A stretch of DNA of 64,000 nucleotides. Source: Ligustrum vulgare (taxonomy: Eukaryota > Streptophyta > Magnoliopsida > Lamiales > Oleaceae). The notes under the pieces are model-generated. The model was not told where the DNA came from. It did not search any database and worked only from the letters and a program-made list of their open reading frames with translations. The first letter of the stretch is position 1. Every line of letters begins with the position of its first letter. The stretch spans positions 11,298,133 to 11,362,132 of the forward strand of contig OY743187.1 in assembly GCA_963555705.1 (NCBI GenBank). The letters run 5' to 3'. Of the stretch, positions 38,727-64,000 are shown one piece after another. The translations under genes were made by a program, and so were the position numbers.

Positions 38727-39171
38727 TACCATAATTAGCTCCACCATCCTTTGTTTCAACTAGGCACTCATTATGTTTTACTAGGCACTTGATTAATTTG
38801 GGTCAAATACCCAACAATCTCCACCTTGACACAAATTCGTCCAAGCCAAAACCAAATTCAAATATTGGGTAACAGGCAAGCATTTTTCCACTTTGACAGT
38901 CCCATACTCCACCATATGAGTATAATCACTCAGAATTATCAACGAACTCCGAGAATTTCATCGGCCCATGTCGAAACAAAATTGCTGAAATTTATGGTGC
39001 AACTCCCATGTTTGGTTCTCCTTGGAAGTTCATCAGCCATCGACATAAAAAAACCACATACCTTGCATCTAAACCAAACCAATGCTATATGCGAACACAG
39101 TACCCGTGCCAGTAAGAACACATCCTCTATCATGGCAACTGACATCATGCCATGAGGATGTCCCATCTTAC

Positions 39172-39957
39172 TTAGAGTACATCATCACCACCCTCCACCA
39201 GGAGAGTCGCATTGTCCTTCGAGCAGTTCGCCGTATCCGCTCCACCTTTTGGACAATTTCTTCTCACGTGCCCGGATTGACCACAGTTCCAACATGTCAC
39301 CTTCTTCTTCATGGAGTTCCCTCTCTTCCACTTTTCAGTAACAAGCAAATTATTTCCAGATGAATCATCACCTCCACCCAATCTCCGTTCTTCAGAGATC
39401 AACTTACTTGTAACTTCAGCAAAATCCACCGTTTCTTTCCCATACATCAAAATCGGTTTGATGTGCTCAAACGTGGATGGAAGAGACCAGATGAGCCTCA
39501 ATGCTTTATCCTCATCTTCAACTTTGACTCCAATAGATTCCAGTTCAGAAACAATCCCGTTAAGGACACTAAGATGGTCAGAAATTTTTGTACATGCGCT
39601 CATTCTCAACGAATGAAACTGTTCCTTCAGATACAAGCGATTTGACAAGTTCTTCGTTTGATACAACTCTTCCAGTTTCTCCCAAAGTTCCTTAGCAGCA
39701 GATATCCCATGAATATTTGCAAGAACATTCTTGGCCAAACAAAGTCGTATTGTACTAGCAGCTTTCAAATCCAAATCTACCCAATCTTCATCAGTCTTGT
39801 TGGATTCAATTTCTTTTTCTTTGTCAGAACTCTCAGTTGGTTTTCCCTTCAAAGCTTTGTGCAGACCCGCCTGAATCAAGACATCCTTGACTTGTACTTG
39901 CCACAAGCCAAAATTGATTCTCCCGTCAAATTTCTCCACATCGTACTTGACAGACAT
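39172..39957 (-). CDS. Copia gag of the gag-only element (intact ORF)
   Basis: An uninterrupted 261-codon frame. The N-terminal part is a DUF4219/UBN2-type capsid (MSVKYDVEKFDG...WQVQVKDVL). The C-terminal part has a CX2CX4HX4C zinc knuckle (CWNCGQSGHVRRNC) for RNA binding. It is followed by a short non-coding stretch and the purine tract, with no protease or polymerase. Such elements would need enzymes in trans from an autonomous Copia relative. The reading frame is not damaged, which fits the identical LTRs. Confidence 0.9.
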   Translation of the reverse strand: MSVKYDVEKFDGRINFGLWQVQVKDVLIQAGLHKALKGKPTESSDKEKEIESNKTDEDWVDLDLKAASTIRLCLAKNVLANIHGISAAKELWEKLEELYQTKNLSNRLYLKEQFHSLRMSACTKISDHLSVLNGIVSELESIGVKVEDEDKALRLIWSLPSTFEHIKPILMYGKETVDFAEVTSKLISEERRLGGGDDSSGNNLLVTEKWKRGNSMKKKVTCWNCGQSGHVRRNCPKGGADTANCSKDNATLLVEGGDDVL

Positions 39958-43499: not shown

Positions 43500-46425
43500 A
43501 CCCTCAAATTGGTGTATAGATAACACACATGTCCAACTGGATATCGATGTAAAGAAAGAACCACTAACCACTCCATGCATCATGATGTCAACTAATTGAT
43601 TTGCACTCTTAATACACGGAATCATATATTATTGGAGTTGAAGTTGTCTTTGATGTAGTATCTATCAAGCTCAAAATGTTTCATTCGATAATATTGTACC
43701 AGGTTGTTTGCTATCTTAATAGGTACAGTGTTATCACAAAAGAGTAACACGCATGATGTTCTACTTCTGCACTAGATAGTCAAACCACATTTTCTTATTT
43801 ACCCAAGTAACAAGATTTCCTCCAAACAATCTCGATGCAACAAAATCAGAATTTGTGTAAACAATGTCTAGATGTTCCCTTTTAAAGTACAAGATGCCCT
43901 TACTTGAGAAAAAAAAAAAGCCAAAATACTAATAATTGCACTCATGTGTTGATCATTTGAGTTATGCATGAACTGGCTAATAACACTGATTGCACATGAA
44001 AATTTTGATATTGTGTGAGTAAGATAAATCAATTCTTCTACCAATCTCTAACATCTCTGCTTGTTCGTAGGAATCTGATTCGGGTAAATAGATAGGCCAT
44101 GATTCACTTCAATAGGTGTATCTACAGAAGCACAAGCTGAAATACCAATTTTTTGCTAGGAGATCAAGAACATACTCAAGGACAAGTCCTTGCTTGGATG
44201 TCATTCTTAAAAACCCATTAAAATACTTTAGAGTACCCCAAATCTTTCTTTTTAAACTCCTTTGTGAGATGAGTTGAAGTTTCTCAATTTCACCATGGTT
44301 ACTCCCAATAACAATCATATTATTCACATATACAATGAGTAAGGTAAAATCCTAACAATTTCTTTTAGATAGAGTTTGGTAAGTTAAAGTCTGCTTAAAA
44401 TCGTACTTCTTCATTGAACAACTCAACCTTCCAAACCATGTCCTTGGTAATTATTTTAGCCCATATAGAGTTTTCTTTAACTTACACACTTTACCCTTAG
44501 AGGAGTAAAATCAATAGATGGATCCATATACACTTCATCTATCAGATCATCATGAAGGAAGACATTTTAACATCGAATTACCCCAATGGCTTATCGAGAT
44601 TGACTGCTAAAGACAATATAACTCTAACAATATTCATCTTGGCTACTGAATCAAAAATCTGCCCATGATCAAATCCATTGGCCTGTGTGAAACCTTTTTG
44701 CAACCATTATAGCCTTATACGTGTCCACGGTCTTATTTGGCTTGTATTTTAATGAGTATACTCATTTGCACCCCATAGTCCTTTTTCCAGGTGGTAGCGC
44801 TTCCAAGTGGAATTCTTTTAGAGAGCATCCATTCCTTCTACCATAGCAAATTTCCACTTAGGTTGATCAAAAGCTTCCTGGAAATGATTAGGAATAGACG
44901 CAACAAACAACTGAAGGGCAAGTGCCATGTTAATCTTATATAAACAATGATAAGAATATATTCAAAGATAGGAAAGATAGTACCAGAAGAGGATGTTAAG
45001 AAACTTAACCTATCAGGTGGGTTAAGGTTTCGAAGAGAATGTCTCCTGACCAGAGTATCAACATTGTCTGAAGCTACATGATTAGAATTAAAAATGAAAA
45101 TAGAATTGGAAGGGGTAGGAGGTGGAATATGTACTTCATTTTCAATTGTAGAAGAGTTCGATGGAACTGTAGTATCAACAGGAGAACTATCAAAGTCTGA
45201 AGAGGGCCGACAATATTTTCAGTAACCAGTGCTGGAGTAAAAGGAGTATCTAGATTTTTTCTGGTGTAGCACTTTTGGAACAACCTAAATGATTTGTCAC
45301 TCTCGACTTAGAACGCCCCCTTACATTTATTTTTATTCTAATCATATATGTTCCCCTTCTTTACTACAAATCGCCCTTTGAAGAGGAACTAACGATACAT
45401 CGTCAGATAAAAAAGAACCGAATTCACAAAACTCAACGTCCATAAGATATAGTATTTTCTAGTAGGGGGATAAAAATATTTGTAGGCTTTTGGGAGCTGG
45501 AAAAACCAAGGAAAATACATTTCAATGCACAAGGATCAAGTTTGTCTTTGAGATGGAAGTTTACATGGACATAACACACACAACCAACGATTTTAGGATA
45601 AATTATTCAAGGTAGGAGGAACAGAGTGGAACCTTGACAACATCCTTAGGGGAATTTGAAAATCAATTATGCAAGAAGGCATATGATTGATGAGAAACAT
45701 AGCGGTTGACATAGCTTCAGCCCAAAAACATTTTGAAACCCGCATAATAAAGCATAATACTCGGGCTACTGCAAGGACATGCTAATTTTTCACGCTCTGC
45801 TATGCCGTTATATTGTGTTGTGTAAGCATAAATTGTCTGATGGAGAATATCGTGAGTCGCAAAGAAGTTGGCAAGAGTTTGATTTACAAACCCGCGATCG
45901 TTGTCAGAATGAAAAACCTTAACCTGAGTAAGAAATTGTGTCTCGACCATTTTCGAAAATTTAGGAATAACATACACGACATCACCTTTAGATTTAAGAA
46001 AATATACCCAACACATTTTGGTACGACTATCAATAAAAGAAACAAAATATTTTTGACCTAAAGCAGATGGAATAGAGAAAAGATCACAAACATCAGTATG
46101 AACATAAGTAAAAGGAACAAGACTTGTATTAAGACTGATTTTAAAAGGTACACGATGATTTTTGGGAAAAATACATTGTTCACAACGCATCTAGAACTAG
46201 GAATATTCTAAAATAATTTTGCAAACAAGTGTTCTAAATAAGAAAATGAGGGGTGTCTTAATCAACAATGTCACAAAAGGATTCTGTATTTAGGAGAGGA
46301 TCTACTCACCACTTAAAGACCAGCACCAGCCTAAGTTTACAACTTCTCTATCCCATCCAAAAAAATAGCCCTCCTCTTTCCCTACTTGTGCTAAGCGTCA
46401 TCTTCTTTCAATTGTCCTGGAAGAC
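43500..46425 (-). pseudogene. Decayed Copia polyprotein, minus strand
   Basis: Read on the minus strand from about 46420: a degraded gag-pre-integrase segment (46420-46190), a CEQC motif and integrase core (46190-45717) with an HTDVCD aspartate, then an intervening degraded stretch. Reverse transcriptase (about 44750-44100) contains a YVNNMIVIG-like version of the YVDD box and a LGTLKYF-like segment, and an RNase H end (43860-43560) contains GNLVTW. Stops and frameshifts are numerous. No LTR of its own was recognised. It is cut at 46425 by the start of the tandem array. Confidence 0.82.
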
Positions 46426-46967
46426 TATAGCGACCCAGAAGCCTCATTTTGTAAAACAGACTGGCAAACAGGATCTTTCGATATTATATTTTGGAGACTA
46501 TAACGATTTTTGTCCTCGTTAAACTGAGCGTATAAGGAGAGAAGTTCACGTTGTACATAACCACTTGGGTGCGTCTCAAGAGTCAGTCGAATATCATCCA
46601 AAGACTCCTTACTCAGTCCACCCTTTATGAATTCGATTTTATCATCTCGATTAGTAGAAGAATATCCTACTGATTTGCAACGTGTATTACAGTTCCAACG
46701 AGCACATTTGTAGCAACCACCCAGTCTTTTTGCTCTTCGTTTCTTTGCAAACGTGCTTTTGCCTAAACCAGGCATGTGCTTTGGAAATGTTGATGGTAAT
46801 TCACCAGATAGTCGAACCTTTGCTTCTATCAACCAGCGAACATCTTCGGGAATATCATGAGCCATTAGCAACCTCAATCTTTCGAGCCTTATTCTATAGA
46901 TCTTTCTCAGATCATTCATAGGAAGACTGGAATAATACTTGCGAATGTTAGAAAGGATGATATCCAT
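46425..46967 (-). CDS. Cysteine-rich basic ORF, copy 1 (altered C-terminus)
   Basis: 180 codons from the ATG at 46965-46967, same as copy 2 up to Gly-Ser near the end. The last residues are replaced by Leu and a TAG supplied by the LTR remnant, because the array is truncated here. The cysteine cluster and basic region are kept. Its LOG partner is missing since the deletion removed it. The upstream region, including the TTTAAATAG box, is preserved, so expression is possible. Confidence 0.6.
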   Translation of the reverse strand: MDIILSNIRKYYSSLPMNDLRKIYRIRLERLRLLMAHDIPEDVRWLIEAKVRLSGELPSTFPKHMPGLGKSTFAKKRRAKRLGGCYKCARWNCNTRCKSVGYSSTNRDDKIEFIKGGLSKESLDDIRLTLETHPSGYVQRELLSLYAQFNEDKNRYSLQNIISKDPVCQSVLQNEASGSL

Positions 46968-47860
46968 TGTTTGATGATTCAACCTCTTCCCAGCATGAAC
47001 TATTTAAAAGCGCAAGGATATGAATGAATCCGCGTGATTTGTGTTACAGTAAGAAAGCATGGAATAAAATAATGGATAAGAGGAGACAAGAATTAATGCG
47101 CCGTTCAATTTCTTGATAAAAGAAAGATTTGATGATGGGATTTGAGATTTGGAATATTTTTTCTTGGATTATGGGTACTGATATTTTGTTATAATAATGA
47201 TAATCATGGTATAGTGTGATGATACGTGGAAAGTGAATTGAGGACCGTATCGAATCAGAATTCATACGTATATACAAGTGAAAGAAATACTTTGCAGGAA
47301 ATGTGATGATAATTAAGTAAAGAATCTTAGTTTGGGAGATATTTGTTTAATGAATTTTTGGGTTACAAATATTGGAATGATAAGTTGATGATATTATGTT
47401 GATATGTTATTGGGTATATTACGTAGAGAGAATATTCAGGTAATTCTTTGATTATTTTGGAAATATTCGATGATAAGAAGAAAGGAAAAATTTTTATGAT
47501 ATGATATATCAGTAAAGATTTGTTGAAATTTTAGAGATATATACGAATATTTGAGGTCACATGATACGATGATAAGTGACAAGTTACATGAATACTACAA
47601 GATATGATGAAATATCACATACGATTGGGAAAATTTCATTTTGATTCAGAAGAATTTTTGAGTAGACACATATGTCTATAGAAAAAGTCCATGTTCTTGA
47701 GAAAACAAAGTGATGCATTTAGTCAAAGTCCAGTTGGTTAAAATGGTTGGGTTAAATATGGTAGCGATGATGCTACATAAGGGAAGAAGAAGAAGAGATT
47801 CTGATTAAGTATTCAGAAATCATAAGATCGAGTAAGTTTAATTTCGAGGACGAAATTATT

Positions 47861-47875
47861 TTAAGGGGGAAAGAT
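47861..47875 (+). promoter_or_regulatory. Polypurine tract before LTR1
   Basis: TTAAGGGGGAAAGAT lies directly before the LTR start TATAGCGACCC. The same tract precedes LTR2 (about 54562-54576) and LTR3 (about 61280-61294). It would prime plus-strand DNA synthesis. Confidence 0.85.
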
Positions 47876-50800
47876 TATAGCGACCCAGAATTTTTACGCA
47901 ATTTTATAATTATTTTAATATTTAGAAAATTGTGTCGCTACTATTTCACCTATTATTTTGAAGTTAACGCCGCGACGGATTCGTCTAGCCAAGTCAAGAA
48001 ATATCGAATTTGTTCGATTTTAAATTAAAATTCAAATTTCTAAAATTATGTTATTTTAATTATTTACTCAAAGTATTATTTTCAAAATTATTTTTCAGTC
48101 CAAAATATATCAATTTTAAATATATTTTCAAATCGAAGTTAGTCAGATTTTTTTTAGTTAAATTAATCCTATTTATCTAAACCAAATTTTCCCCCACCTC
48201 CACGTTCAACTTCAATAATACAGCAATTTCATCATCAAAATCCACTCAATGATTCCACTAAATTATTCCCCAAATTATGATGTTTCCCACCTCCACAAAA
48301 CACTATCATTATCATCACCATCCTCTTCCCACTATCATCAATTAAAACCACCAATTCAGTACAATTTCAGTTCAGCATCACCTATATAATAACCACAGCC
48401 CTGCCTCCATCATCAGTCACCACTGTTTCATCAATCTGTTTCATCAATGTCAAAACCACCACTATCCATTTCCACCTTCATCACCTGCAACTCACAATCA
48501 GACACCTCCACGAACCCACACTGCCACTACCAAGCTGAACCAGAATCACCACCCACACTGATTCATCTCCCTCACGCAGTTAACCTCACATAACCATCTC
48601 AACATCACACAATTCTCAATTCCATCAAGTTTTCAGAAATCATTCTCATTATCAATAACCTCACCACTGCAAATCACCATTTATCATCATCACCAAATTG
48701 GCAAGCCATAACCAAGATCCACAGCCTGCATACACAATAACCAAATACAACCAATGCCACCTTCAACACCATTTCAGTATTATCTCCACCACCGGTAGCA
48801 TCACCAGCCCTTTCACTGTCACCACCCCTGCCAGGTTGAACTTCAAACCAACCAGCACCACCACCACCAATCAATCAAGAACCGCCACTGCCTGAAACTC
48901 TGTTTTCCACAAACTAAATTCACAACGTTCAGTTGAACCCAATTTCTCAACCTCTCCAAATCACCATTGATCAGACCAAAAAAAAACTCAATGATAAATA
49001 AACCCAGTTACCTACCTCAACTGTGGAACCACTTCGCCGGAGCTATCACCGGAAACCGCAACCTTCGACCTAGGTTACACTTCGATTTCGCACCTAACCT
49101 CGCACCTGAAACCAAATCAGAACTTCCACTCTTTTTCCGTCGCTCGCCACACCTTACGCCTACGGTTCGCCGGCGTTCCACCGGCTGTAGCCCGGACTTC
49201 ACCCTCCGTCGCCAGCTTCATCTCCCCTCTCGCCTGTCTCTATCTCTGATGAATACGAAATAGTAGAAAGTGAACGTAAAGATCTGAAATATATGTTTAA
49301 TTTAAAAGTTTTCTTAAATTGCAGTTTAGTCCCTGAAGTTTTAAAGTCTTTCAAATCGACCCCTACTGTTTTAAAATGATCATTTCAGCCTTGAGTTTTA
49401 AATGAGTTTTAATCAGCCCCTATTGTTTTAAAATATATTATTTCAACCCTATTGTTTTGAGTTTCCGACTCAACTTTCAAAGTATTCACTTTTAATCCCT
49501 CAAATTTCAAAATATCTATTTTAGTCCATGAACTTTCAAAACATCAATTTTAGTCCTCAAATTATAATTTATCATTTTGAACTATATATTCGATAGACTA
49601 AAATGACTTATTGGCTAAGACGAAGCGTACGGAGAATTTAAAGAAATTGAAGTCATTCTCGCTCAACTTTGCACTCGTCGGATTTGAGGTAGACTCGCAC
49701 TTATTAATTGATTTAAATTATGATTTCATATGAATGTCATGTGACTTGTGAAAGTCAATTTTCAAGAAAATTAAGTATGTTTTATGAAAGGTAAATATAC
49801 CTTATGTTTTTATGAAAAGTAAGTATACCCTATGTTTTTACGATAATGTTTTATATGTTTTGGATCATTGCTATGCACATAAGAATTCTTGCCACCTAAG
49901 TTCGGTAAAATTCTTGTGTCTCCATAAGTTTATGAGGATTTACCACCTAAGTTCGGTAAAATTCCTGTCTTTCCATATGTTTATGAGGATTTACCACCTA
50001 AGTTCGGTAAAATTCCTGTCGCGTATGTTTATGAGGATTTCGATCCTATCTTATGTTATGATGGAAATGATCCCTATGAATTTCATGAATTATGTTTTGG
50101 TATACTTACTGTTATTATGATTTTACTACATAAGAATTCTTGCCACCTTAGTTCGGTAAAATTCTTATATTTATGAGGATTTCGATCTTATCTTATGTTA
50201 TTATGATCTTACTGTTATTATGATTTTACTACATAAGAATTCTTGCCACCTAAGTTCGGTAAAATTCTTATATTTATGAGGATTTCGATCTTATCCTATG
50301 TTATTATGATCTTACTGTTATTATGATTTTACTACATAAGAATTCTTGCCACCTAAGTTCGGTAAAGTTCTTGTGTCTTCTTATGTTTATGAGGATTTCA
50401 ATCATATCTTATGTTATGCTTTCAAAAGAAATTATGCTTGGCATAATTAAAATATTTTTATAAGTATATGGTTTTCAAAGAGCTGTTTTCAAAGAGCTAA
50501 TTTCAAAGAGCAGTTTTATAAAGAAGCTCTATCAATGCCCGTTTTATAAAGAGCCGGGATTTATGTGTTTAATCATCTTATAAATTAAATTAATTTGCGA
50601 TGAGTCTACTGAGTATTTCCCCCATGAAATACTCACCCTACTTTTTAACAGTTTTGCAGATTTCGGAGACGGTGGCGAGCGATGAATGATGGTGGCAATA
50701 ATCGTTAAACGGTTGAAAGTTTGACGTTAATGATTTCCGTATTTTTCCAAACAATCGAATAATTTAGAGAAGTTCATTTATTTGAGAAATTATGACATTG

Positions 50801-50997
50801 TCAATTTCTTTACAAAATTAATGGTTCGATTTACTATTTCAAATGGTTTCATAAATGTTTCAATTTTATCGGCCATTACAGTATATTTAATGTTGCCAAA
50901 AATGAATTTCAATTATTTCTTCCGCAAAAATATTATTCGAAAAATTTAGACAGAAAATGACGTAGTGAATCGGGTATACGGAACTCGGGGCGCTACA
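47876..50997 (+). repeat. LTR1 of the array (3122 bp)
   Basis: Starts TATAGCGACCC and ends GGGGCGCTACA, which are imperfect inverted ends; the leading TG appears mutated to TA. It has an AT-rich left part, a CAC-rich low-complexity middle (48190-48960), a GC-rich segment (49020-49240), and a tandem-repeat region near 49870-50390. Several short frames inside (for example 48967-49263) show no recognised domain. It differs from LTR2 at two noted positions and by the 17-bp indel. Confidence 0.88.
49870..50395 (+). repeat. LTR subrepeats with CCACCTAAGTTCGGTAAAATTC core
   Basis: Six copies of a CCACCTAAGTTCGGTAAA-type core, with TTTATGAGGATTT after each, are spaced about 55 to 115 bp apart. The block is repeated at about 56571-57115 and 63289-63833 in LTR2 and LTR3. 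A 17-bp phrase (TTATTATGATCTTACTG) is present once here and twice in the later copies. Confidence 0.9.
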
Positions 50998-51000
50998 AGT

Positions 51001-51012
51001 TGGTATCAGAGC
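51001..51012 (+). promoter_or_regulatory. Primer-binding site of the array element
   Basis: TGGTATCAGAGC, complementary to the 3' end of initiator-Met tRNA, three bases after the LTR end. Repeated at 57719-57730. Confidence 0.92.
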
Positions 51013-51839
51013 TAGTCTGCGTTTCTGTAGACTGGTAAAATTTTCAAAAAGAATTTTCAAGAAATATTTTCATTATAAGATTTTTATTGATGAAGATTGC
51101 CACTGCCATCATTCGTTCCACCAACTCCGAGGTAAAGAAGTTTATGATGTTTAAAGTTATTTCAGTATTTCGAATACTCATTTTATTGATTTATGAGAAA
51201 GAATGAAGAGTATTTTGGATACTTATGATTTATGAGAAATAAGAATGTATTTCTTCGAAAATAATGATGTTGTTATGCTTTGTCATAACTTATATGCTTT
51301 AATGTATGATTATGAGAAAATTTTTAAGAAAGAAAACGAGTGTTGAGCATAATGGGAATAATATGATTTAAGAATGATTTTTAAATAATTTTTGTCCTCG
51401 AGTTAGAAATGATGAACCCTAGATGGACTTTGCATAATTGATTTTAGACATGGCATATATTTATAAGTATGAGTAATCTTTTGAGCCAATTAAGGTATGG
51501 AAGGAAATGATATTGTGATATTGAAAAAAATATGATTTGAAATTGTTATGTTGAGGAATTATGAATGGAATTATGAGATATTTTTGATGATATTGAAGTG
51601 TTGGAATCGTTTTCAATATTTTAGATCGTTGTGATCAAATGTGGAGTTATTTGTTATTGTGAGTTATGAAGTATGCTTATGTTTTGGGATAAGTCCAAAT
51701 TACACGGGAGACTCTGTTCAGAATTTTATCAATTGAAATTAAGAGCATGATATGATAAGCATCTACTAAAGAATTAAGGTTAGACATGCAAGTTCATTTA
51801 CATCACAAACGAGATTTAGTAGCTGATAGCAGAGATTTT
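51013..51839. other. Leader-like internal sequence, no ORF recognised
   Basis: AT-rich with many ATGAT/TTATGA words. A short frame begins at an ATG near 51090 but stops soon. A normal Gypsy element would carry gag here; none is recognisable. Same in 57731-58557. Confidence 0.55.
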
Positions 51840-51845
51840 TTTATT
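51840..51845 (-). terminator. Candidate poly(A) signal for LOG copy 1
   Basis: AATAAA on the minus strand, about 320 bases after the LOG stop codon. The same site is at 58558-58563. Confidence 0.4.
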
Positions 51846-51949
51846 TTCTCATAAGGAGAACACACAAGAGTCACACTGGAAAGGAAATACATGAAACACA
51901 TGAAAGCATAAGAGAAAAACATGGAAAGATCCTCAGAATGAGAGATGTG

Positions 51950-52155
51950 TTTCCGGAGTAGCCGTATCCTACCACCTCTGATCTTTTGAGGATAAAGAGA
52001 AAACCTTCAAAGAGGTGTGTTTCGAGAGTAAGAATACTCCGTAATCTACCACCTGGAACCTTTGAGGTACACACAAGATTTAAACATTAAGGAAATCCTA
52101 GTAAATGGAGGGGTGTCTCGAGAGTGAGAATACTCCGTACTCTACCCCCACCTAT
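51950..52155 (-). repeat. Three imperfect repeats downstream of LOG
   Basis: On the minus strand, GGTGG...TAGAGTACGGAGTATTC, GGTGGTAGATTACGGAGTATTC and GGTGGTAGGATACGGCTACTCC occur about 75-100 bases apart, each followed by CTCGA(G/A)ACACCCCTC-like sequence. They lie in the putative LOG 3' UTR. Copy 2 is at about 58668-58873. Confidence 0.75.
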
Positions 52156-52163
52156 TCTAAGAT

Positions 52164-52817
52164 TCACAGAGTTAAGTTTACATTAACCGGACTCCATTTT
52201 CGCTTGATTCCCTTTCCTTGCGACCAATCTATCTTAACCCCTGCTGGATCTTGTATTGAGATATATGACTGCAGCTTATCCAGTAGTTCATCAATAGTAG
52301 GAGCAGAAATAAGAAGCCTTCTGGAAAATGGAGAGATGAATCCCTGTTCCACAGCATAATCAAGAAAAGTTAACAAACCATCAAAGAAATTGTTAACATT
52401 CAGAAGTCCAATAGGCTTAGTATGGAGATCTAGTTGAGCCCACGAGGTAATGTTAAAGATTTCTTCTAAGGTACCAAAACCTCCGGGCAGGGCTATAAAG
52501 GCATCAGAACCATATAGCATACAAGTTATGCGTTCATGGATGGAAAATGTTTGAACTTCATGCCCTCGTGTTTTGCCTGCAACATCTACCAAAGGGACAG
52601 GTATGACACCGATTACTTTTGATTTCTCTGCAAGAGCAGATTGGGAAACACAACCCATTAGACCACTGCTACCACCCCCATATACAAGAGTGATACCTTT
52701 TTCCCCCAGTTTCTTTCCAAGATCTACAGCCGTTTCTAGATAACCGAAGCCTTTCCCCACTCTTGATCCACAAAATACACAAATAGTTTTGATTTGTCGA
52801 AGTTTTGGTGCTTCCAT
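52164..52817 (-). CDS. LOG: LONELY GUY-type cytokinin-activating enzyme, intronless, copy 1
   Basis: A 217-aa LOG family protein: it releases active cytokinin bases from cytokinin riboside 5'-monophosphates, normally in cytosol and nucleus. Seen: CVFCGSR (13-19), the nucleotide-binding YGGGSSGLMG (46-55), VIGVIP (68-73), HER (94-96) and the signature PGGFGTLEE (111-119) with its catalytic glutamate; Tyr of the usual PGGYGT is Phe. The usual Lys after HER is Ile here. The C-terminal region has SAPTIDELLDKLQSY. Length is normal for the family. Ordinary plant LOG genes have several introns; this one has none, suggesting capture through RNA. It lies antisense inside the array element, downstream of the cysteine-rich ORF, with its own TTTAAATAG box. 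The ATG at 52817 follows a CT-rich leader. Which LOG paralogue gave rise to it is unknown. Confidence 0.92.
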   Translation of the reverse strand: MEAPKLRQIKTICVFCGSRVGKGFGYLETAVDLGKKLGEKGITLVYGGGSSGLMGCVSQSALAEKSKVIGVIPVPLVDVAGKTRGHEVQTFSIHERITCMLYGSDAFIALPGGFGTLEEIFNITSWAQLDLHTKPIGLLNVNNFFDGLLTFLDYAVEQGFISPFSRRLLISAPTIDELLDKLQSYISIQDPAGVKIDWSQGKGIKRKWSPVNVNLTL

Positions 52818-52891
52818 CTTTGATAGTATAGAAGAGAAAACTTACGAAGAAGATGTGATTTTGGGATGCCTGAACTATGAAATATGTTTGG

Positions 52892-52900
52892 CTATTTAAA
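52892..52900 (-). promoter_or_regulatory. TATA-like box upstream of LOG copy 1
   Basis: TTTAAATAG on the minus strand about 75 bases before the ATG, inside GGCTTTAAATAGCC. It resembles the box before the cysteine-rich ORF (53701-53711). Copy at 59610-59618. Confidence 0.6.
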
Positions 52901-53116
52901 GCCGGAAAAATTTACTGTTTTTGATTGATTCTGAAAAAGTAAAGATTTACTTTTGACAAAATCAGCCCACTTTTGAATATTTTTATCGTATCGAGGCTGT
53001 CACCTTTCGGCGATTAAATATTTTATTTCCAGCTTTATCAAACCTCGAGAAAGGAAAATATATTTTATTTTCAAAACGCGTGAAAGAAAGCAGCAAAATA
53101 TTTTAAAAGATTTACC

Positions 53117-53668
53117 TTATATCATTGCTGAACTGCCAGAAGCCTCATTTTGTAAAACAGACTGGCAAACAGGATCTTTCGATATTATATTTTGGAGACT
53201 ATAACGATTTTTGTCCTCGTTAAACTGAGCGTATAAGGAGAGAAGTTCACGTTGTACATAACCACTTGGGTGCGTCTCAAGAGTCAGTCGAATATCATCC
53301 AAAGACTCCTTACTCAGTCCACCCTTTATGAATTCGATTTTATCATCTCGATTAGTAGAAGAATATCCTACTGATTTGCAACGTGTATTACAGTTCCAAC
53401 GAGCACATTTGTAGCAACCACCCAGTCTTTTTGCTCTTCGTTTCTTTGCAAACGTGCTTTTGCCTAAACCAGGCATGTGCTTTGGAAATGTTGATGGTAA
53501 TTCACCAGATAGTCGAACCTTTGCTTCTATCAACCAGCGAACATCTTCGGGAATATCATGAGCCATTAGCAACCTCAATCTTTCGAGCCTTATTCTATAG
53601 ATCTTTCTCAGATCATTCATAGGAAGACTGGAATAATACTTGCGAATGTTAGAAAGGATGATATCCAT
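53117..53668 (-). CDS. Virus-like cysteine-rich nucleic-acid-binding ORF, copy 2
   Basis: 183 codons from the ATG at 53666-53668; a longer frame would need a TTG start. Residues 1-60 are helical and basic, with a segment LLMAHDIPEDVRWLIEAKV. Residues 70-82 are a strongly basic run (GKSTFAKKRRAKR). A four-cysteine cluster CX2CX4CX3C follows at 85-97, then an acidic-hydrophobic FIKGGL segment and a Glu/Asn/Ser-rich tail. The order of helical N-terminus, STFAK-RRAKR basic run, Cys cluster and FIKxG segment resembles the small cysteine-rich nucleic-acid-binding proteins of Betaflexiviridae (carlaviruses, vitiviruses), some of which are reported silencing suppressors. I infer an endogenised viral gene or a plant protein of the same fold. 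No other family came to mind. Intact, antisense to the retroelement, 300 bases upstream of LOG in the same direction. Confidence 0.6.
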   Translation of the reverse strand: MDIILSNIRKYYSSLPMNDLRKIYRIRLERLRLLMAHDIPEDVRWLIEAKVRLSGELPSTFPKHMPGLGKSTFAKKRRAKRLGGCYKCARWNCNTRCKSVGYSSTNRDDKIEFIKGGLSKESLDDIRLTLETHPSGYVQRELLSLYAQFNEDKNRYSLQNIISKDPVCQSVLQNEASGSSAMI

Positions 53669-53700
53669 TGTTTGATGATTCAACCTCTTCCCAGCATGAA

Positions 53701-53711
53701 CTATTTAAAAG
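53701..53711 (-). promoter_or_regulatory. TATA-like box upstream of the cysteine-rich ORF, copy 2
   Basis: CTTTTAAATAG on the minus strand about 35 bases before the ATG, close in sequence to the LOG box. Same box at about 47000-47010 and 60419-60429. The short spacing would give a short leader. Confidence 0.5.
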
Positions 53712-54576
53712 CGCAAGGATATGAATGAATCCGCGTGATTTGTGTTACAGTAAGAAAGCATGGAATAAAATAATGGATAAGAGGAGACAAGAATTAATGC
53801 GCCGTTCAATTTCTTGATAAAAGAAAGATTTGATGATGGGATTTGAGATTTGGAATATTTTTTCTTGGATTATGGGTACTGATATTTTGTTATAATAATG
53901 ATAATCATGGTATAGTGTGATGATACGTGGAAAGTGAATTGAGGACCGTATCGAATCAGAATTCATACGTATATACAAGTGAAAGAAATACTTTGCAGGA
54001 AATGTGATGATAATTAAGTAAAGAATCTTAGTTTGGGAGATATTTGTTTAATGAATTTTTGGGTTACAAATATTGGAATGATAAGTTGATGATATTATGT
54101 TGATATGTTATTGGGTATATTACGTAGAGAGAATATTCAGGTAATTCTTTGATTATTTTGGAAATATTCGATGATAAGAAGAAAGGAAAAATTTTTATGA
54201 TATGATATATCAGTAAAGATTTGTTGAAATTTTAGAGATATATACGAATATTTGAGGTCACATGATACGATGATAAGTGACAAGTTACATGAATACTACA
54301 AGATATGATGAAATATCACATACGATTGGGAAAATTTCATTTTGATTCAGAAGAATTTTTGAGTAGACACATATGTCTATAGAAAAAGTCCATGTTCTTG
54401 AGAAAACAAAGTGATGCATTTAGTCAAAGTCCAGTTGGTTAAAATGGTTGGGTTAAATATGGTAGCGATGATGCTACATAAGGGAAGAAGAAGAAGAGAT
54501 TCTGATTAAGTATTCAGAAATCATAAGATCGAGTAAGTTTAATTTCGAGGACGAAATTATTTTAAGGGGGAAAGAT
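53712..54576. other. Upstream flank of the ORF pair and 3' end of the element
   Basis: AT-rich sequence with no recognised gene; the minus frame 53745-53978 has no domain. The right end has the TTTCGAGGACGAAATT phrase seen near the 3' end of many chromovirus Gypsy elements, then the purine tract. Same content at 47011-47875 and 60430-61294. Confidence 0.55.
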
Positions 54577-57500
54577 TATAGCGACCCAGAATTTTTACGC
54601 AATTTTATAATTATTTTAATATTTAGAAAATTGTGTCGCTACTATTTCACCTATTATTTTGAAGTTAACGCCGCGACGGATTCGTCTAGCCAAGTCAAGA
54701 AATATCGAATTTGTTCGATTTTAAATTAAAATCCAAATTTCTAAAATTATGTTATTTTAATTATTTACTCAAAGTATTATTTTCAAAATTATTTTTCAGT
54801 CCAAAATATATCAATTTTAAATATATTTTCAAATCGAAGTTAGTCAGATTTTTTTTAGTTAAATTAATCCTATTTATCTAAACCAAATTTTCCCCCACCT
54901 CCACGTTCAACTTCAATAATACAGCAATTTCATCATCAAAATCCACTCAATGATTCCACTAAATTATTCCCCAAATTATGATGTTTCCCACCTCCACAAA
55001 ACACTATCATTATCATCACCATCCTCTTCCCACTATCATCAATTAAAACCACCAATTCAGTACAATTTCAGTTCAGCATCACCTATATAATAACCACAGC
55101 CCTGCCTCCATCATCAGTCACCACTGTTTCATCAATCTGTTTCATCAATGTCAAAACCACCACTATCCATTTCCACCTTCATCACCTGCAACTCACAATC
55201 AGACACCTCCACGAACCCACACTGCCACTACCAAGCTGAACCAGAATCACCACCCACACTGATTCATCTCCCTCACGCAGTTAACCTCACATAACCATCT
55301 CAACATCACACAATTCTCAATTCCATCAAGTTTTCAGAAATCATTCTCATTATCAATAACCTCACCACTGCAAATCACCATTTATCATCATCACCAAATT
55401 GGCAAGCCATAACCAAGATCCACAGCCTGCATACACAATAACCAAATACAACCAATGCCACCTTCAACACCATTTCAGTATTATCTCCACCACCGGTAGC
55501 ATCACCAGCCCTTTCACTGTCACCACCCCTGCCAGGTTGAACTTCAAACCAACCAGCACCACCACCACCAATCAATCAAGAACCGCCACTGCCTGAAACT
55601 CTGTTTTCCACAAACTAAATTCACAACGTTCAGTTGAACCCAATTTCTCAACCTCTCCAAATCACCATTGATCAGACCAAAAAAAAACTCAATGATAAAT
55701 AAACCCAGTTACCTACCTCAACTGTGGAACCACTTCGCCGGAGCTATCACCGGAAACCGCAACCTTCGACCTAGGTTACACTTCGATTTCGCACCTAACC
55801 TCGCACCTGAAACCAAATCAGAACTTCCACTCTTTTTCCGTCGCTCGCCACACCTTACGCCTACGGTTCGCCGGCGTTCCACCGGCTGTAGCCCGGACTT
55901 CACCCTCCGTCGCCAGCTTCATCTCCCCTCTCGCCTGTCTCTATCTCTGATGAATACGAAATAGTAGAAAGTGAACGTAAAGATCTGAAATATATGTTTA
56001 ATTTAAAAGTTTTCTTAAATTGCAGTTTAGTCCCTGAAGTTTTAAAGTCTTTCAAATCGACCCCTACTGTTTTAAAATGATCATTTCAGCCTTGAGTTTT
56101 AAATGAGTTTTAATCAGCCCCTATTGTTTTAAAATATATTATTTCAACCCTATTGTTTTGAGTTTCCGACTCAACTTTCAAAGTATTCACTTTTAATCCC
56201 TCAAATTTCAAAATATCTATTTTAGTCCATGAACTTTCAAAACATCAATTTTAGTCCTCAAATTATAATTTATCATTTTGAACTATATATTCGATAGACT
56301 AAAATGACTTATTGGCTAAGACGAAGCGTACGGAGAATTTAAAGAAATTGAAGTCATTCCCGCTCAACTTTGCACTCGTCGGATTTGAGGTAGACTCGCA
56401 CTTATTAATTGATTTAAATTATGATTTCATATGAATGTCATGTGACTTGTGAAAGTCAATTTTCAAGAAAATTAAGTATGTTTTATGAAAGGTAAATATA
56501 CCTTATGTTTTTATGAAAAGTAAGTATACCCTATGTTTTTACGATAATGTTTTATATGTTTTGGATCATTGCTATGCACATAAGAATTCTTGCCACCTAA
56601 GTTCGGTAAAATTCTTGTGTCTCCATAAGTTTATGAGGATTTACCACCTAAGTTCGGTAAAATTCCTGTCTTTCCATATGTTTATGAGGATTTACCACCT
56701 AAGTTCGGTAAAATTCCTGTCGCGTATGTTTATGAGGATTTCGATCCTATCTTATGTTATGATGGAAATGATCCCTATGAATTTCATGAATTATGTTTTG
56801 GTATACTTACTGTTATTATGATTTTACTACATAAGAATTCTTGCCACCTTAGTTCGGTAAAATTCTTATATTTATGAGGATTTCGATCTTATCTTATGTT
56901 ATTATGATCTTACTGTTATTATGATTTTACTACATAAGAATTCTTGCCACCTAAGTTCGGTAAAATTCTTATATTTATGAGGATTTCGATCTTATCCTAT
57001 GTTATTATGATCTTACTGTTATTATGATCTTACTGTTATTATGATTTTACTACATAAGAATTCTTGCCACCTAAGTTCGGTAAAGTTCTTGTGTCTTCTT
57101 ATGTTTATGAGGATTTCAATCATATCTTATGTTATGCTTTCAAAAGAAATTATGCTTGGCATAATTAAAATATTTTTATAAGTATATGGTTTTCAAAGAG
57201 CTGTTTTCAAAGAGCTAATTTCAAAGAGCAGTTTTATAAAGAAGCTCTATCAATGCCCGTTTTATAAAGAGCCGGGATTTATGTGTTTAATCATCTTATA
57301 AATTAAATTAATTTGCGATGAGTCTACTGAGTATTTCCCCCATGAAATACTCACCCTACTTTTTAACAGTTTTGCAGATTTCGGAGACGGTGGCGAGCGA
57401 TGAATGATGGTGGCAATAATCGTTAAACGGTTGAAAGTTTGACGTTAATGATTTCCGTATTTTTCCAAACAATCGAATAATTTAGAGAAGTTCATTTATT

Positions 57501-57715
57501 TGAGAAATTATGACATTGTCAATTTCTTTACAAAATTAATGGTTCGATTTACTATTTCAAATGGTTTCATAAATGTTTCAATTTTATCGGCCATTACAGT
57601 ATATTTAATGTTGCCAAAAATGAATTTCAATTATTTCTTCCGCAAAAATATTATTCGAAAAATTTAGACAGAAAATGACGTAGTGAATCGGGTATACGGA
57701 ACTCGGGGCGCTACA
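54577..57715 (+). repeat. LTR2 of the array (3139 bp)
   Basis: As LTR1, with a 17-bp tandem duplication near 57010-57045 and single-base differences near 54732 (T to C) and 56360 (T to C). Confidence 0.9.
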
Positions 57716-58881
57716 AGTTGGTATCAGAGCTAGTCTGCGTTTCTGTAGACTGGTAAAATTTTCAAAAAGAATTTTCAAGAAATATTTTCATTATAAGATT
57801 TTTATTGATGAAGATTGCCACTGCCATCATTCGTTCCACCAACTCCGAGGTAAAGAAGTTTATGATGTTTAAAGTTATTTCAGTATTTCGAATACTCATT
57901 TTATTGATTTATGAGAAAGAATGAAGAGTATTTTGGATACTTATGATTTATGAGAAATAAGAATGTATTTCTTCGAAAATAATGATGTTGTTATGCTTTG
58001 TCATAACTTATATGCTTTAATGTATGATTATGAGAAAATTTTTAAGAAAGAAAACGAGTGTTGAGCATAATGGGAATAATATGATTTAAGAATGATTTTT
58101 AAATAATTTTTGTCCTCGAGTTAGAAATGATGAACCCTAGATGGACTTTGCATAATTGATTTTAGACATGGCATATATTTATAAGTATGAGTAATCTTTT
58201 GAGCCAATTAAGGTATGGAAGGAAATGATATTGTGATATTGAAAAAAATATGATTTGAAATTGTTATGTTGAGGAATTATGAATGGAATTATGAGATATT
58301 TTTGATGATATTGAAGTGTTGGAATCGTTTTCAATATTTTAGATCGTTGTGATCAAATGTGGAGTTATTTGTTATTGTGAGTTATGAAGTATGCTTATGT
58401 TTTGGGATAAGTCCAAATTACACGGGAGACTCTGTTCAGAATTTTATCAATTGAAATTAAGAGCATGATATGATAAGCATCTACTAAAGAATTAAGGTTA
58501 GACATGCAAGTTCATTTACATCACAAACGAGATTTAGTAGCTGATAGCAGAGATTTTTTTATTTTCTCATAAGGAGAACACACAAGAGTCACACTGGAAA
58601 GGAAATACATGAAACACATGAAAGCATAAGAGAAAAACATGGAAAGATCCTCAGAATGAGAGATGTGTTTCCGGAGTAGCCGTATCCTACCACCTCTGAT
58701 CTTTTGAGGATAAAGAGAAAACCTTCAAAGAGGTGTGTTTCGAGAGTAAGAATACTCTGTAATCTACCACCTGGAACCTTTGAGGTACACACAAGATTTA
58801 AACATTAAGGAAATCCTAGTAAATGGAGGGGTGTCTCGAGAGTGAGAATACTCCGTACTCTACCCCCACCTATTCTAAGAT

Positions 58882-59535
58882 TCACAGAGTTAAGTTTACA
58901 TTAACCGGACTCCATTTTCGCTTGATTCCCTTTCCTTGCGACCAATCTATCTTAACCCCTGCTGGATCTTGTATTGAGATATATGACTGCAGCTTATCCA
59001 GTAGTTCATCAATAGTAGGAGCAGAAATAAGAAGCCTTCTGGAAAATGGAGAGATGAATCCCTGTTCCACAGCATAATCAAGAAAAGTTAACAAACCATC
59101 AAAGAAATTGTTAACATTCAGAAGTCCAATAGGCTTAGTATGGAGATCTAGTTGAGCCCACGAGGTAATGTTAAAGATTTCTTCTAAGGTACCAAAACCT
59201 CCGGGCAGGGCTATAAAGGCATCAGAACCATATAGCATACAAGTTATGCGTTCATGGATGGAAAATGTTTGAACTTCATGCCCTCGTGTTTTGCCTGCAA
59301 CATCTACCAAAGGGACAGGTATGACACCGATTACTTTTGATTTCTCTGCAAGAGCAGATTGGGAAACACAACCCATTAGACCACTGCTACCACCCCCATA
59401 TACAAGAGTGATACCTTTTTCCCCCAGTTTCTTTCCAAGATCTACAGCCGTTTCTAGATAACCGAAGCCTTTCCCCACTCTTGATCCACAAAATACACAA
59501 ATAGTTTTGATTTGTCGAAGTTTTGGTGCTTCCAT
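58882..59535 (-). CDS. LOG: LONELY GUY-type cytokinin-activating enzyme, intronless, copy 2
   Basis: Protein identical to the copy at 52164-52817, all 217 residues, with the PGGFGTLEE signature intact. The flanks are also near-identical; the one difference I noticed nearby is a C to T at about 58758 in the downstream repeats. Because the copy is so recent, sequence identity says nothing about selection. Both copies are open and have the same upstream TATA-like box. Confidence 0.92.
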   Translation of the reverse strand: MEAPKLRQIKTICVFCGSRVGKGFGYLETAVDLGKKLGEKGITLVYGGGSSGLMGCVSQSALAEKSKVIGVIPVPLVDVAGKTRGHEVQTFSIHERITCMLYGSDAFIALPGGFGTLEEIFNITSWAQLDLHTKPIGLLNVNNFFDGLLTFLDYAVEQGFISPFSRRLLISAPTIDELLDKLQSYISIQDPAGVKIDWSQGKGIKRKWSPVNVNLTL

Positions 59536-59834
59536 CTTTGATAGTATAGAAGAGAAAACTTACGAAGAAGATGTGATTTTGGGATGCCTGAACTATGAAA
59601 TATGTTTGGCTATTTAAAGCCGGAAAAATTTACTGTTTTTGATTGATTCTGAAAAAGTAAAGATTTACTTTTGACAAAATCAGCCCACTTTTGAATATTT
59701 TTATCGTATCGAGGCTGTCACCTTTCGGCGATTAAATATTTTATTTCCAGCTTTATCAAACCTCGAGAAAGGAAAATATATTTTATTTTCAAAACGCGTG
59801 AAAGAAAGCAGCAAAATATTTTAAAAGATTTACC

Positions 59835-60386
59835 TTATATCATTGCTGAACTGCCAGAAGCCTCATTTTGTAAAACAGACTGGCAAACAGGATCTTTCGA
59901 TATTATATTTTGGAGACTATAACGATTTTTGTCCTCGTTAAACTGAGCGTATAAGGAGAGAAGTTCACGTTGTACATAACCACTTGGGTGCGTCTCAAGA
60001 GTCAGTCGAATATCATCCAAAGACTCCTTACTCAGTCCACCCTTTATGAATTCGATTTTATCATCTCGATTAGTAGAAGAATATCCTACTGATTTGCAAC
60101 GTGTATTACAGTTCCAACGAGCACATTTGTAGCAACCACCCAGTCTTTTTGCTCTTCGTTTCTTTGCAAACGTGCTTTTGCCTAAACCAGGCATGTGCTT
60201 TGGAAATGTTGATGGTAATTCACCAGATAGTCGAACCTTTGCTTCTATCAACCAGCGAACATCTTCGGGAATATCATGAGCCATTAGCAACCTCAATCTT
60301 TCGAGCCTTATTCTATAGATCTTTCTCAGATCATTCATAGGAAGACTGGAATAATACTTGCGAATGTTAGAAAGGATGATATCCAT
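59835..60386 (-). CDS. Virus-like cysteine-rich nucleic-acid-binding ORF, copy 3
   Basis: Identical in protein sequence to copy 2 (183 codons from the ATG at 60384-60386), including the basic run and CX2CX4CX3C cluster. It sits 300 bases upstream of LOG copy 2 in the same orientation. Confidence 0.6.
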   Translation of the reverse strand: MDIILSNIRKYYSSLPMNDLRKIYRIRLERLRLLMAHDIPEDVRWLIEAKVRLSGELPSTFPKHMPGLGKSTFAKKRRAKRLGGCYKCARWNCNTRCKSVGYSSTNRDDKIEFIKGGLSKESLDDIRLTLETHPSGYVQRELLSLYAQFNEDKNRYSLQNIISKDPVCQSVLQNEASGSSAMI

Positions 60387-61294
60387 TGTTTGATGATTCA
60401 ACCTCTTCCCAGCATGAACTATTTAAAAGCGCAAGGATATGAATGAATCCGCGTGATTTGTGTTACAGTAAGAAAGCATGGAATAAAATAATGGATAAGA
60501 GGAGACAAGAATTAATGCGCCGTTCAATTTCTTGATAAAAGAAAGATTTGATGATGGGATTTGAGATTTGGAATATTTTTTCTTGGATTATGGGTACTGA
60601 TATTTTGTTATAATAATGATAATCATGGTATAGTGTGATGATACGTGGAAAGTGAATTGAGGACCGTATCGAATCAGAATTCATACGTATATACAAGTGA
60701 AAGAAATACTTTGCAGGAAATGTGATGATAATTAAGTAAAGAATCTTAGTTTGGGAGATATTTGTTTAATGAATTTTTGGGTTACAAATATTGGAATGAT
60801 AAGTTGATGATATTATGTTGATATGTTATTGGGTATATTACGTAGAGAGAATATTCAGGTAATTCTTTGATTATTTTGGAAATATTCGATGATAAGAAGA
60901 AAGGAAAAATTTTTATGATATGATATATCAGTAAAGATTTGTTGAAATTTTAGAGATATATACGAATATTTGAGGTCACATGATACGATGATAAGTGACA
61001 AGTTACATGAATACTACAAGATATGATGAAATATCACATACGATTGGGAAAATTTCATTTTGATTCAGAAGAATTTTTGAGTAGACACATATGTCTATAG
61101 AAAAAGTCCATGTTCTTGAGAAAACAAAGTGATGCATTTAGTCAAAGTCCAGTTGGTTAAAATGGTTGGGTTAAATATGGTAGCGATGATGCTACATAAG
61201 GGAAGAAGAAGAAGAGATTCTGATTAAGTATTCAGAAATCATAAGATCGAGTAAGTTTAATTTCGAGGACGAAATTATTTTAAGGGGGAAAGAT

Positions 61295-64000
61295 TATAGC
61301 GACCCAGAATTTTTACGCAATTTTATAATTATTTTAATATTTAGAAAATTGTGTCGCTACTATTTCACCTATTATTTTGAAGTTAACGCCGCGACGGATT
61401 CGTCTAGCCAAGTCAAGAAATATCGAATTTGTTCGATTTTAAATTAAAATCCAAATTTCTAAAATTATGTTATTTTAATTATTTACTCAAAGTATTATTT
61501 TCAAAATTATTTTTCAGTCCAAAATATATCAATTTTAAATATATTTTCAAATCGAAGTTAGTCAGATTTTTTTTAGTTAAATTAATCCTATTTATCTAAA
61601 CCAAATTTTCCCCCACCTCCACGTTCAACTTCAATAATACAGCAATTTCATCATCAAAATCCACTCAATGATTCCACTAAATTATTCCCCAAATTATGAT
61701 GTTTCCCACCTCCACAAAACACTATCATTATCATCACCATCCTCTTCCCACTATCATCAATTAAAACCACCAATTCAGTACAATTTCAGTTCAGCATCAC
61801 CTATATAATAACCACAGCCCTGCCTCCATCATCAGTCACCACTGTTTCATCAATCTGTTTCATCAATGTCAAAACCACCACTATCCATTTCCACCTTCAT
61901 CACCTGCAACTCACAATCAGACACCTCCACGAACCCACACTGCCACTACCAAGCTGAACCAGAATCACCACCCACACTGATTCATCTCCCTCACGCAGTT
62001 AACCTCACATAACCATCTCAACATCACACAATTCTCAATTCCATCAAGTTTTCAGAAATCATTCTCATTATCAATAACCTCACCACTGCAAATCACCATT
62101 TATCATCATCACCAAATTGGCAAGCCATAACCAAGATCCACAGCCTGCATACACAATAACCAAATACAACCAATGCCACCTTCAACACCATTTCAGTATT
62201 ATCTCCACCACCGGTAGCATCACCAGCCCTTTCACTGTCACCACCCCTGCCAGGTTGAACTTCAAACCAACCAGCACCACCACCACCAATCAATCAAGAA
62301 CCGCCACTGCCTGAAACTCTGTTTTCCACAAACTAAATTCACAACGTTCAGTTGAACCCAATTTCTCAACCTCTCCAAATCACCATTGATCAGACCAAAA
62401 AAAAACTCAATGATAAATAAACCCAGTTACCTACCTCAACTGTGGAACCACTTCGCCGGAGCTATCACCGGAAACCGCAACCTTCGACCTAGGTTACACT
62501 TCGATTTCGCACCTAACCTCGCACCTGAAACCAAATCAGAACTTCCACTCTTTTTCCGTCGCTCGCCACACCTTACGCCTACGGTTCGCCGGCGTTCCAC
62601 CGGCTGTAGCCCGGACTTCACCCTCCGTCGCCAGCTTCATCTCCCCTCTCGCCTGTCTCTATCTCTGATGAATACGAAATAGTAGAAAGTGAACGTAAAG
62701 ATCTGAAATATATGTTTAATTTAAAAGTTTTCTTAAATTGCAGTTTAGTCCCTGAAGTTTTAAAGTCTTTCAAATCGACCCCTACTGTTTTAAAATGATC
62801 ATTTCAGCCTTGAGTTTTAAATGAGTTTTAATCAGCCCCTATTGTTTTAAAATATATTATTTCAACCCTATTGTTTTGAGTTTCCGACTCAACTTTCAAA
62901 GTATTCACTTTTAATCCCTCAAATTTCAAAATATCTATTTTAGTCCATGAACTTTCAAAACATCAATTTTAGTCCTCAAATTATAATTTATCATTTTGAA
63001 CTATATATTCGATAGACTAAAATGACTTATTGGCTAAGACGAAGCGTACGGAGAATTTAAAGAAATTGAAGTCATTCCCGCTCAACTTTGCACTCGTCGG
63101 ATTTGAGGTAGACTCGCACTTATTAATTGATTTAAATTATGATTTCATATGAATGTCATGTGACTTGTGAAAGTCAATTTTCAAGAAAATTAAGTATGTT
63201 TTATGAAAGGTAAATATACCTTATGTTTTTATGAAAAGTAAGTATACCCTATGTTTTTACGATAATGTTTTATATGTTTTGGATCATTGCTATGCACATA
63301 AGAATTCTTGCCACCTAAGTTCGGTAAAATTCTTGTGTCTCCATAAGTTTATGAGGATTTACCACCTAAGTTCGGTAAAATTCCTGTCTTTCCATATGTT
63401 TATGAGGATTTACCACCTAAGTTCGGTAAAATTCCTGTCGCGTATGTTTATGAGGATTTCGATCCTATCTTATGTTATGATGGAAATGATCCCTATGAAT
63501 TTCATGAATTATGTTTTGGTATACTTACTGTTATTATGATTTTACTACATAAGAATTCTTGCCACCTTAGTTCGGTAAAATTCTTATATTTATGAGGATT
63601 TCGATCTTATCTTATGTTATTATGATCTTACTGTTATTATGATTTTACTACATAAGAATTCTTGCCACCTAAGTTCGGTAAAATTCTTATATTTATGAGG
63701 ATTTCGATCTTATCCTATGTTATTATGATCTTACTGTTATTATGATCTTACTGTTATTATGATTTTACTACATAAGAATTCTTGCCACCTAAGTTCGGTA
63801 AAGTTCTTGTGTCTTCTTATGTTTATGAGGATTTCAATCATATCTTATGTTATGCTTTCAAAAGAAATTATGCTTGGCATAATTAAAATATTTTTATAAG
63901 TATATGGTTTTCAAAGAGCTGTTTTCAAAGAGCTAATTTCAAAGAGCAGTTTTATAAAGAAGCTCTATCAATGCCCGTTTTATAAAGAGCCGGGATTTAT
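61295..64000 (+). repeat. LTR3 of the array, cut by the window end
   Basis: Matches LTR2 through the window end, including the 17-bp duplication near 63730-63765. The array therefore continues at least to the right edge of this LTR and possibly further. Confidence 0.9.

Follow-up and report, generated by a model that had tools for sequence, protein, structure and literature searches.

A 64,000-nucleotide stretch of the Ligustrum vulgare genome (contig OY743187.1, positions 11,298,133 to 11,362,132; hereafter the window) ends in a tandem array of a long terminal repeat (LTR) retrotransposon that carries two genes antisense to its LTRs: one for a predicted enzyme of the cytokinin-activating LOG family and one for a cysteine-rich protein (CRP) of plant-virus type. 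Seven further loci of the same assembly hold this element between paired LTRs, and both genes are under purifying selection as judged from substitution patterns among copies. We give an even chance to the reading that this is a recently inserted, gag/pol-less LTR retrotransposon whose antisense gene pair is an accessory module, freeing cytokinin and damping silencing for the copying and inheritance of the element.

Architecture and gene content of the array

Self-comparison of the window revealed a tandem direct repeat (46435-53135, 53136-59853 and 59854-64000) with units of 6701 and 6718 bp and 99.5-99.8% identity. One unit of about 6.7 kb consists of one 3.1 kb LTR and 3.58 kb of internal DNA. 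The LTRs start with TATAGCG and end with CGCTACA; a primer site (TGGTATCAGAGC, which we take to be of the initiator-Met type) lies shortly 3' of the LTR, at 51001 and 57719, and a purine tract lies 5' of every LTR (Table 1). Near-identical LTRs surround an internal region, the primer site and purine tract are correctly placed both here and at all seven other loci, and these features, together with target duplications at six of the seven, identify an LTR retrotransposon. Three substitutions and a single 17-bp indel separate units 1 and 2, and units 2 and 3 show no difference across 4147 bp. A minisatellite within the LTR (window 49889-50417, and its copies) is the source of the single 17-bp length difference. 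In unit 1 the 5' LTR is reduced to a remnant of 14-15 bp, fused through a shared CCAGAA to the end of the CRP gene, so that its LOG is lost. The array extends 4180 bp beyond the window edge, to C20:11366312, which adds a third LOG and a fourth CRP gene, and its far end is an LTR broken off after 168 bp. The target duplication of this array is unreadable, the last LTR being truncated. Such an array would stem from unequal recombination between LTRs. A broken copia-type integrase fragment (window 45717-46190; PF00665 at 1.8e-10) adjoins its left edge.

Both genes lie antisense to the LTRs and are ordered, in the direction of transcription, CRP then LOG. The LOG gene is intronless, as predicted originally, and encodes 217 amino acids that match PF03641 at 1.4e-33, above the Pfam cut-off. 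The protein resembles Arabidopsis 2a33 in sequence (1.4e-56) and in the fold of a predicted model (root-mean-square deviation 1.3 over 176 columns). The PGGxGTxxE motif and the LOG fold, the latter in the predicted model, are retained. By family match, motif and modelled fold, it is thus a predicted LOG-family enzyme. The CRP gene encodes 183 amino acids from its first ATG, not the 188 first stated, and holds a Cys4 motif (CYKCARWNCNTRC). Its virus-type label was upheld by the Pfam scores: PF05515 (Viral_NABP) matched at 3.8e-7 and PF01623 (Carla_C4) at 4.8e-6, both above cut-off, and 25 of 27 aligned CRP members match each of these two viral families. The Cys4 motif and both families are those of carlavirus-type CRPs, which are encoded by flexible filamentous RNA viruses, whereas the present gene is flanked by LTRs in a plant genome. 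The reading as a mere fragment of an RNA virus genome was ruled out, since the resemblance to viruses is confined to the CRP, which itself lies within an LTR element. The claim of two intact antisense open reading frames (ORFs) holds for units 2 and 3, where Pfam recognizes LOG and CRP, and fails for unit 1, where LOG is lost and the C terminus of the CRP is altered. A TATA-like box (TTTAAATAG) upstream of each gene is identical in all ten copies compared, three from the array and seven elsewhere, and each gene would be transcribed from its own promoter.

No gag or pol was found. Of the 13 stop-to-stop frames of at least 60 amino acids in one internal region, LOG and CRP account for two, and nine of the remaining 11 were scanned without any Pfam match. 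The pol sequence of a related contig (L024, see below) had no match anywhere in the window. The original prediction of a tandem LTR array with primer site and purine tract, lacking gag and pol, was thus borne out by self-comparison, motifs and the frame scan. The gag and pol of gypsy order, with the phylogeny that defines Ty3/gypsy elements, did not appear in the nine frames scanned or in the comparison with L024 pol; descent from a gypsy element is possible, with the class not assignable without pol. Conserved ORFs antisense to the LTRs, as in antisense-ORF-bearing LTR retrotransposons, occur at all seven other loci, and the gag-pol that precedes such ORFs was not seen in those nine frames or in that comparison. 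Both gag and pol would come in trans from an autonomous relative.

Other copies, selection and relatives

An LTR search of the same 1.385 Gb assembly scored at least 40 LTR matches out of 2195 first-look candidates, with only one window LTR among the matches listed. Fourteen of the 39 other matches form seven pairs, and the internal region was read at all seven. Each holds primer site, LOG, CRP and purine tract (AAGGGGG or AAGGAGG) in the same order and orientation. The LOG frame is intact at all seven loci and the CRP frame at six, that of L039 being frameshifted. Target duplications flank six of the seven copies (five perfect 5-bp, one 4-bp). This ruled out a one-off insertion. Copies lie at scattered places on six contigs. 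At the five loci where both LTRs were read, 1-5 substitutions separate the pair across 3202-3471 bp (K 0.0003-0.0015), so that insertion was recent; at substitution rates of 1.3e-8 and 7e-9 the age is estimated from these differences as 0.01-0.11 million years. At the seventh locus (C20:15852112-15859430; L037, L046, L047) there is on both sides an LTR with a primer site after it, the second LTR included, which makes this a likely second place with a tandem arrangement of the element. A further 20 places (21 matches), read on the 3' side only, have no internal region after their one LTR and are probably solo LTRs. The 3' LTR of the C8 copy contains, at L038:4481 to about 7451, an LTR-like insert in inverted orientation whose end shows about 85% identity; this insert is probably a solo LTR of a related family and could lead to the autonomous partner.

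Comparison of the copies showed that the two genes change mostly at silent positions. Pooled over all pairs, LOG gave a synonymous divergence (dS) of 0.037 and a nonsynonymous divergence (dN) of 0.0044 (eight copies; dN/dS 0.118), and CRP gave 0.072 and 0.011 (seven copies; dN/dS 0.154). The third array unit (L033) was left out of both sets, and the frameshifted L039 out of the CRP set. Third codon positions account for 34 of the 55 variable sites (LOG 15 of 23, CRP 19 of 32), and the variable codons that differ only synonymously are 15 of 23 in LOG and 16 of 28 in CRP, where random changes would be expected to be synonymous in 28-29%. Mean pairwise difference is 0.012 without gaps in LOG and 0.024 with 0.1% gap cells in CRP; in other internal parts it is 0.021 (leader) and 0.047, 0.038 and 0.073 (the rest), with 4-15% gap cells. 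These values indicated that both genes are under purifying selection at the sequence level. The mobile, amplified two-gene cassette of the original prediction was accordingly substantiated: the search for copies with independent target duplications yielded the loci above, refuting the case of no other copies, and neutral decay of both ORFs was not seen.

Relatives outside this genome were numerous. LOG gave 6560 matches at 1e-20, and Reevesia supplies 38 rows among the best 120 of the 6560. In an unrooted tree, 27 LOG rows, the window's included, and 13 plant LOG1/LOG3-like rows split into two sets at 100/100 support. This split, together with the C-terminal tail described below, ruled out an ordinary host LOG copy. 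CRP gave 343 matches, and Orobanche, Striga, Populus, Xanthoceras and Acer are named among the best 120 of them. Three Orobanche gene models fuse CRP with a LOG-family domain in the same order as in the window, and the CRP and LOG members of the pairs P0013/P0144 (8723 bases) and P0014/P0231 (4511 bases) likely lie on one contig each, because the contigs are equal in size and source. We infer that the remaining LOG matches are element-borne as well. In IMG/VR, the LOG alignment found 23 loci at 25-33% identity, which we take for phage or bacterial LOG-like genes, and the CRP alignment found no relative. A sequence search of the PDB with CRP returned two matches, with E 0.25.

A further relative lies on L024, a contig of 3330 bases filed under a bacterial metagenome-assembled genome, whose region 194-2347 resembles plant retrotransposon DNA; we take it for plant contamination. 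It carries the end of a retrotransposon pol (integrase domains), presumably Athila-like, and 200 bases later, in sense, a CRP gene that shares 67% identity with that of the window; a stretch resembling a splice acceptor separates this gene from pol. This layout means that CRP also occupies an env-like gene position, behind pol. Between the two CRPs, dN is 0.25, dS is 1.36 and pN/pS is 0.33 (0.25-0.44).

These comparisons bear on two alternatives. It is extremely improbable that the genes are neutral passengers, captured too recently to have decayed, in an array created by misassembly. The copies are indeed young, and the identity of units 2 and 3 could also arise by misassembly; however, units 1 and 2 are not identical, and an LTR with a primer site after it occurs at a second locus too. 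Noncoding internal DNA diverges by up to 0.073 between sublineages whose genes have changed mostly at synonymous sites, and between the CRP and its distant L024 counterpart dN (0.25) is well below dS (1.36). The neutral reading was set aside on the pooled dN/dS. We also hold it to be very unlikely that the pair serves the host, as a domesticated cassette for hormone and defence functions whose place in an element is incidental. Purifying selection alone does not tell for whom the genes are kept, but an amplifying element better fits both the very young copies scattered on six contigs and the many Reevesia rows among the LOG matches.

Elsewhere in the window, two 541-bp direct repeats with 100% identity (38276-40550) flank a lone copia-type gag ORF (39172-39957, minus strand; PF14223 at 4.6e-36), and the whole resembles a small gag-only LTR element. 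An intact glutaredoxin-domain ORF of 386 amino acids (11658-12818; PF00462 at 1.8e-12) is probably a host gene.

Table 1. Features of the array, in window coordinates.
Feature	Position	Strand	Basis
Unit 1 CRP gene, with C terminus changed at the junction	46425..46967	-	ORF 46425-46982 from TTG; first ATG gives 46967
LTR 1 remnant, 14-15 bp, joined through CCAGAA to CRP gene end	46426..46440	+	LTR start motif and junction read directly
Purine tract before LTR 2	47863..47874	+	read in sequence
LTR 2, 3122 bp, TATAGCG...CGCTACA, contains minisatellite	47876..50997	+	same ends with target duplications at other loci
Primer site TGGTATCAGAGC	51001..51012	+	found in 7/7 other loci too
LOG gene, 217 aa, no intron	52164..52817	-	ORF and Pfam match
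TATA-like TTTAAATAG upstream of LOG	52892..52900	-	identical in 10/10 copies; putative promoter
CRP gene, 183 aa from first ATG, Cys4 CYKCARWNCNTRC	53117..53668	-	ORF and Pfam match
TATA-like TTTAAATAG upstream of CRP	53701..53709	-	identical in 10/10 copies; putative promoter
Purine tract before LTR 3	54564..54575	+	read in sequence
LTR 3, 3139 bp	54577..57715	+	self-comparison and ends
Primer site, second	57719..57730	+	read in sequence
LOG gene, second copy in window	58882..59535	-	ORF and Pfam match
TATA-like box upstream of LOG, second copy	59610..59618	-	sequence
CRP gene, 183 aa, third copy in window	59835..60386	-	ORF and Pfam match
TATA-like box upstream of CRP, third copy	60419..60427	-	sequence
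Purine tract before LTR 4	61282..61293	+	read in sequence
LTR 4, runs past window edge and ends 433 bp beyond; next LOG-CRP unit after	61295..64000	+	sequence and flanking DNA

Possible functions of the gene pair

Since both proteins are under purifying selection although the element has no gag or pol of its own, copies in which the genes work would be the ones that leave more progeny. The likeliest gain would be a cell state that favours copying and inheritance. LOG would cleave cytokinin nucleotides and free active cytokinin, and more active cytokinin would lead to dividing cells; CRP, by analogy with some of its viral relatives, would bind nucleic acid and weaken silencing. The available text of one source describes silencing suppressors among viral CRPs, and one CRP that acts as a transcription factor causing hyperplasia (PMC12172455). 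That selection is visible on single copies suggests that part of the benefit acts in cis, or else that the active master copies are few.

Several observations weigh against an accessory module of this kind. The fold model of CRP is poor (mean predicted local distance difference test score, 62), and the protein is only distantly related to viral proteins of known function. No LOG was found in the 3330 bases of L024 beside its CRP, so the two genes do not always lie near each other. In base conservation the leader, which holds the primer site, equals CRP, and the dN/dS ratios are rough, because changes are few and pairs not independent, although their direction is clear.

The tail of LOG points to another possible role. 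Among the 120 nearest LOG proteins (the best 120 of 6560), 94 have an LxLxL C-terminal end and 103 a basic run within their final 20 residues; the corresponding counts are 0 and 1 in a host control formed by the 120 LOG1/3-like proteins nearest Arabidopsis 2a33, with LOG8-type host proteins left out. LxLxL is one of two ethylene-responsive element-binding factor-associated amphiphilic repression (EAR)-type motifs according to the part of the source available (PMC6479872). LOG could therefore be mainly a nuclear recruiter of co-repressors, whose basic run and LxLxL tail bind TOPLESS-family proteins and whose release of cytokinin is secondary or lost. We regard this as unlikely. The tail is predicted to be disordered and pathogen effectors with EAR motifs are in print, as far as the accessible literature goes, both of which would suit such a recruiter; its difficulty is that the window's LOG ends in VNVNLTL, without the strict EAR-type motif, and that all eight copies compared in this genome, and the third array unit too, carry at their end the degenerate LxLxL variant KRKWSPVNVNLTL. 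Moreover, the enzyme motif PGGxGTxxE is retained by 107 of these 120 LOG proteins, a share close to that among the host LOGs, where 108 of 120 have it.

The antisense transcripts themselves might instead be what matters, for instance if they pair with RNA of the element and adjust how strongly it is silenced, with the proteins secondary. Antisense transcription is known in other plant elements and such a role has been proposed for it, at least in the portion of the source at hand (PMC7264820), and the conserved TATA-like boxes would agree with it. An RNA-only role, however, does not need amino acids conserved well beyond synonymous sites, as they are here, and we judge it improbable.

Returning to the accessory module, a wider version of it can be put forward tentatively, with the chances leaning against it. 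Retroelements of rosids and asterids would share a two-gene module for host manipulation, composed of a viral-type CRP and a LOG that acquired a nuclear, co-repressor-binding tail. The module would pass between retroelement lineages, with CRP in sense behind pol in one arrangement and, in another, both genes antisense under their own promoters in a gag-pol-less element, and would steer growth and silencing on behalf of the element, like the effector set of a pathogen. The role of these accessory genes is directly testable, because each protein falls into a known family whose activity can be assayed, and both are under purifying selection in an element without gag and pol.

Comparison with known systems

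LARD-type elements (large retrotransposon derivatives) resemble the present element in their long LTRs and in an internal region, about 3.5 kb in length, that lacks gag-pol. LARD internal regions are generally described as noncoding, whereas the internal part of the present element holds two genes under selection. Among coding elements, Steinbauerova in 2011 is said to have described two Athila-like ones with LOGL4-like ORFs. LOG-type (YgdH) domains in Gypsy elements of Citrus and Populus are in print, in a paper that cites Steinbauerova 2011 for LOG-type elements (PMC9289625). The original prediction knew of no described element with the present pairing; that stands for CRP, for which no paper placing it in a retrotransposon was found in the open-access literature (most subscription papers lying outside this scope), and falls for LOG taken singly. 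The Citrus and Populus elements share with ours a LOG-family domain inside a plant LTR retrotransposon. They were found by their reverse transcriptase, and hence their consensuses have pol, and the available part of the paper names no CRP, selection test or tail. In the present element, by contrast, no gag or pol was found in the frames scanned, and LOG is antisense and paired with CRP. The same paper, in the part available, describes orchid Gypsy elements with an AlkB-type RNA demethylase, likewise an enzyme that was captured and is proposed to counter the control exerted by the host (PMC9289625); there the enzyme is another one, the elements measure 25 kb, and no partner protein is named.

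Conserved antisense ORFs before the 3' LTR are known from Grande (gene23), RIRE2 and Retand, and an upstream promoter of its own has been reported for the Grande ORF (PMC7264820, PMC11963269; both sources in part). As of 2020 these ORFs, in the accessible text, did not clearly resemble any known protein and had no role assigned to them (PMC7264820), or they carry TRP28 and others (PMC11963269, in part); here they are LOG and a viral-type CRP, and gag-pol is missing. The terms cytokinin, lysine decarboxylase, NABP and carlavirus are all absent from the main text of the Retand survey. A study of plant genomes for fragments of RNA viruses reports a betaflexivirus replicase-like piece and mentions neither 'cysteine-rich' nor 'nucleic acid-binding' (PMC3136472).

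The CRP shares PF01623, PF05515 and a Cys4 motif beside a basic stretch with carlavirus-type CRPs and nucleic acid-binding proteins (NABPs) such as p12 of chrysanthemum virus B (CVB) and NaBP of sweet potato chlorotic fleck virus (SPCFV), as these are described in the available part of PMC12172455. It differs in being encoded in nuclear retroelements and in having conserved N- and C-terminal parts outside the matched stretch. The finding bears on the origin of the cysteine-rich proteins of flexible filamentous viruses. As far as the literature searches reach, the CRP partner, the measured selection, the conserved putative promoter boxes and the tail are new, in one selfish unit that joins a predicted hormone-activating enzyme to a protein of plant-virus type.

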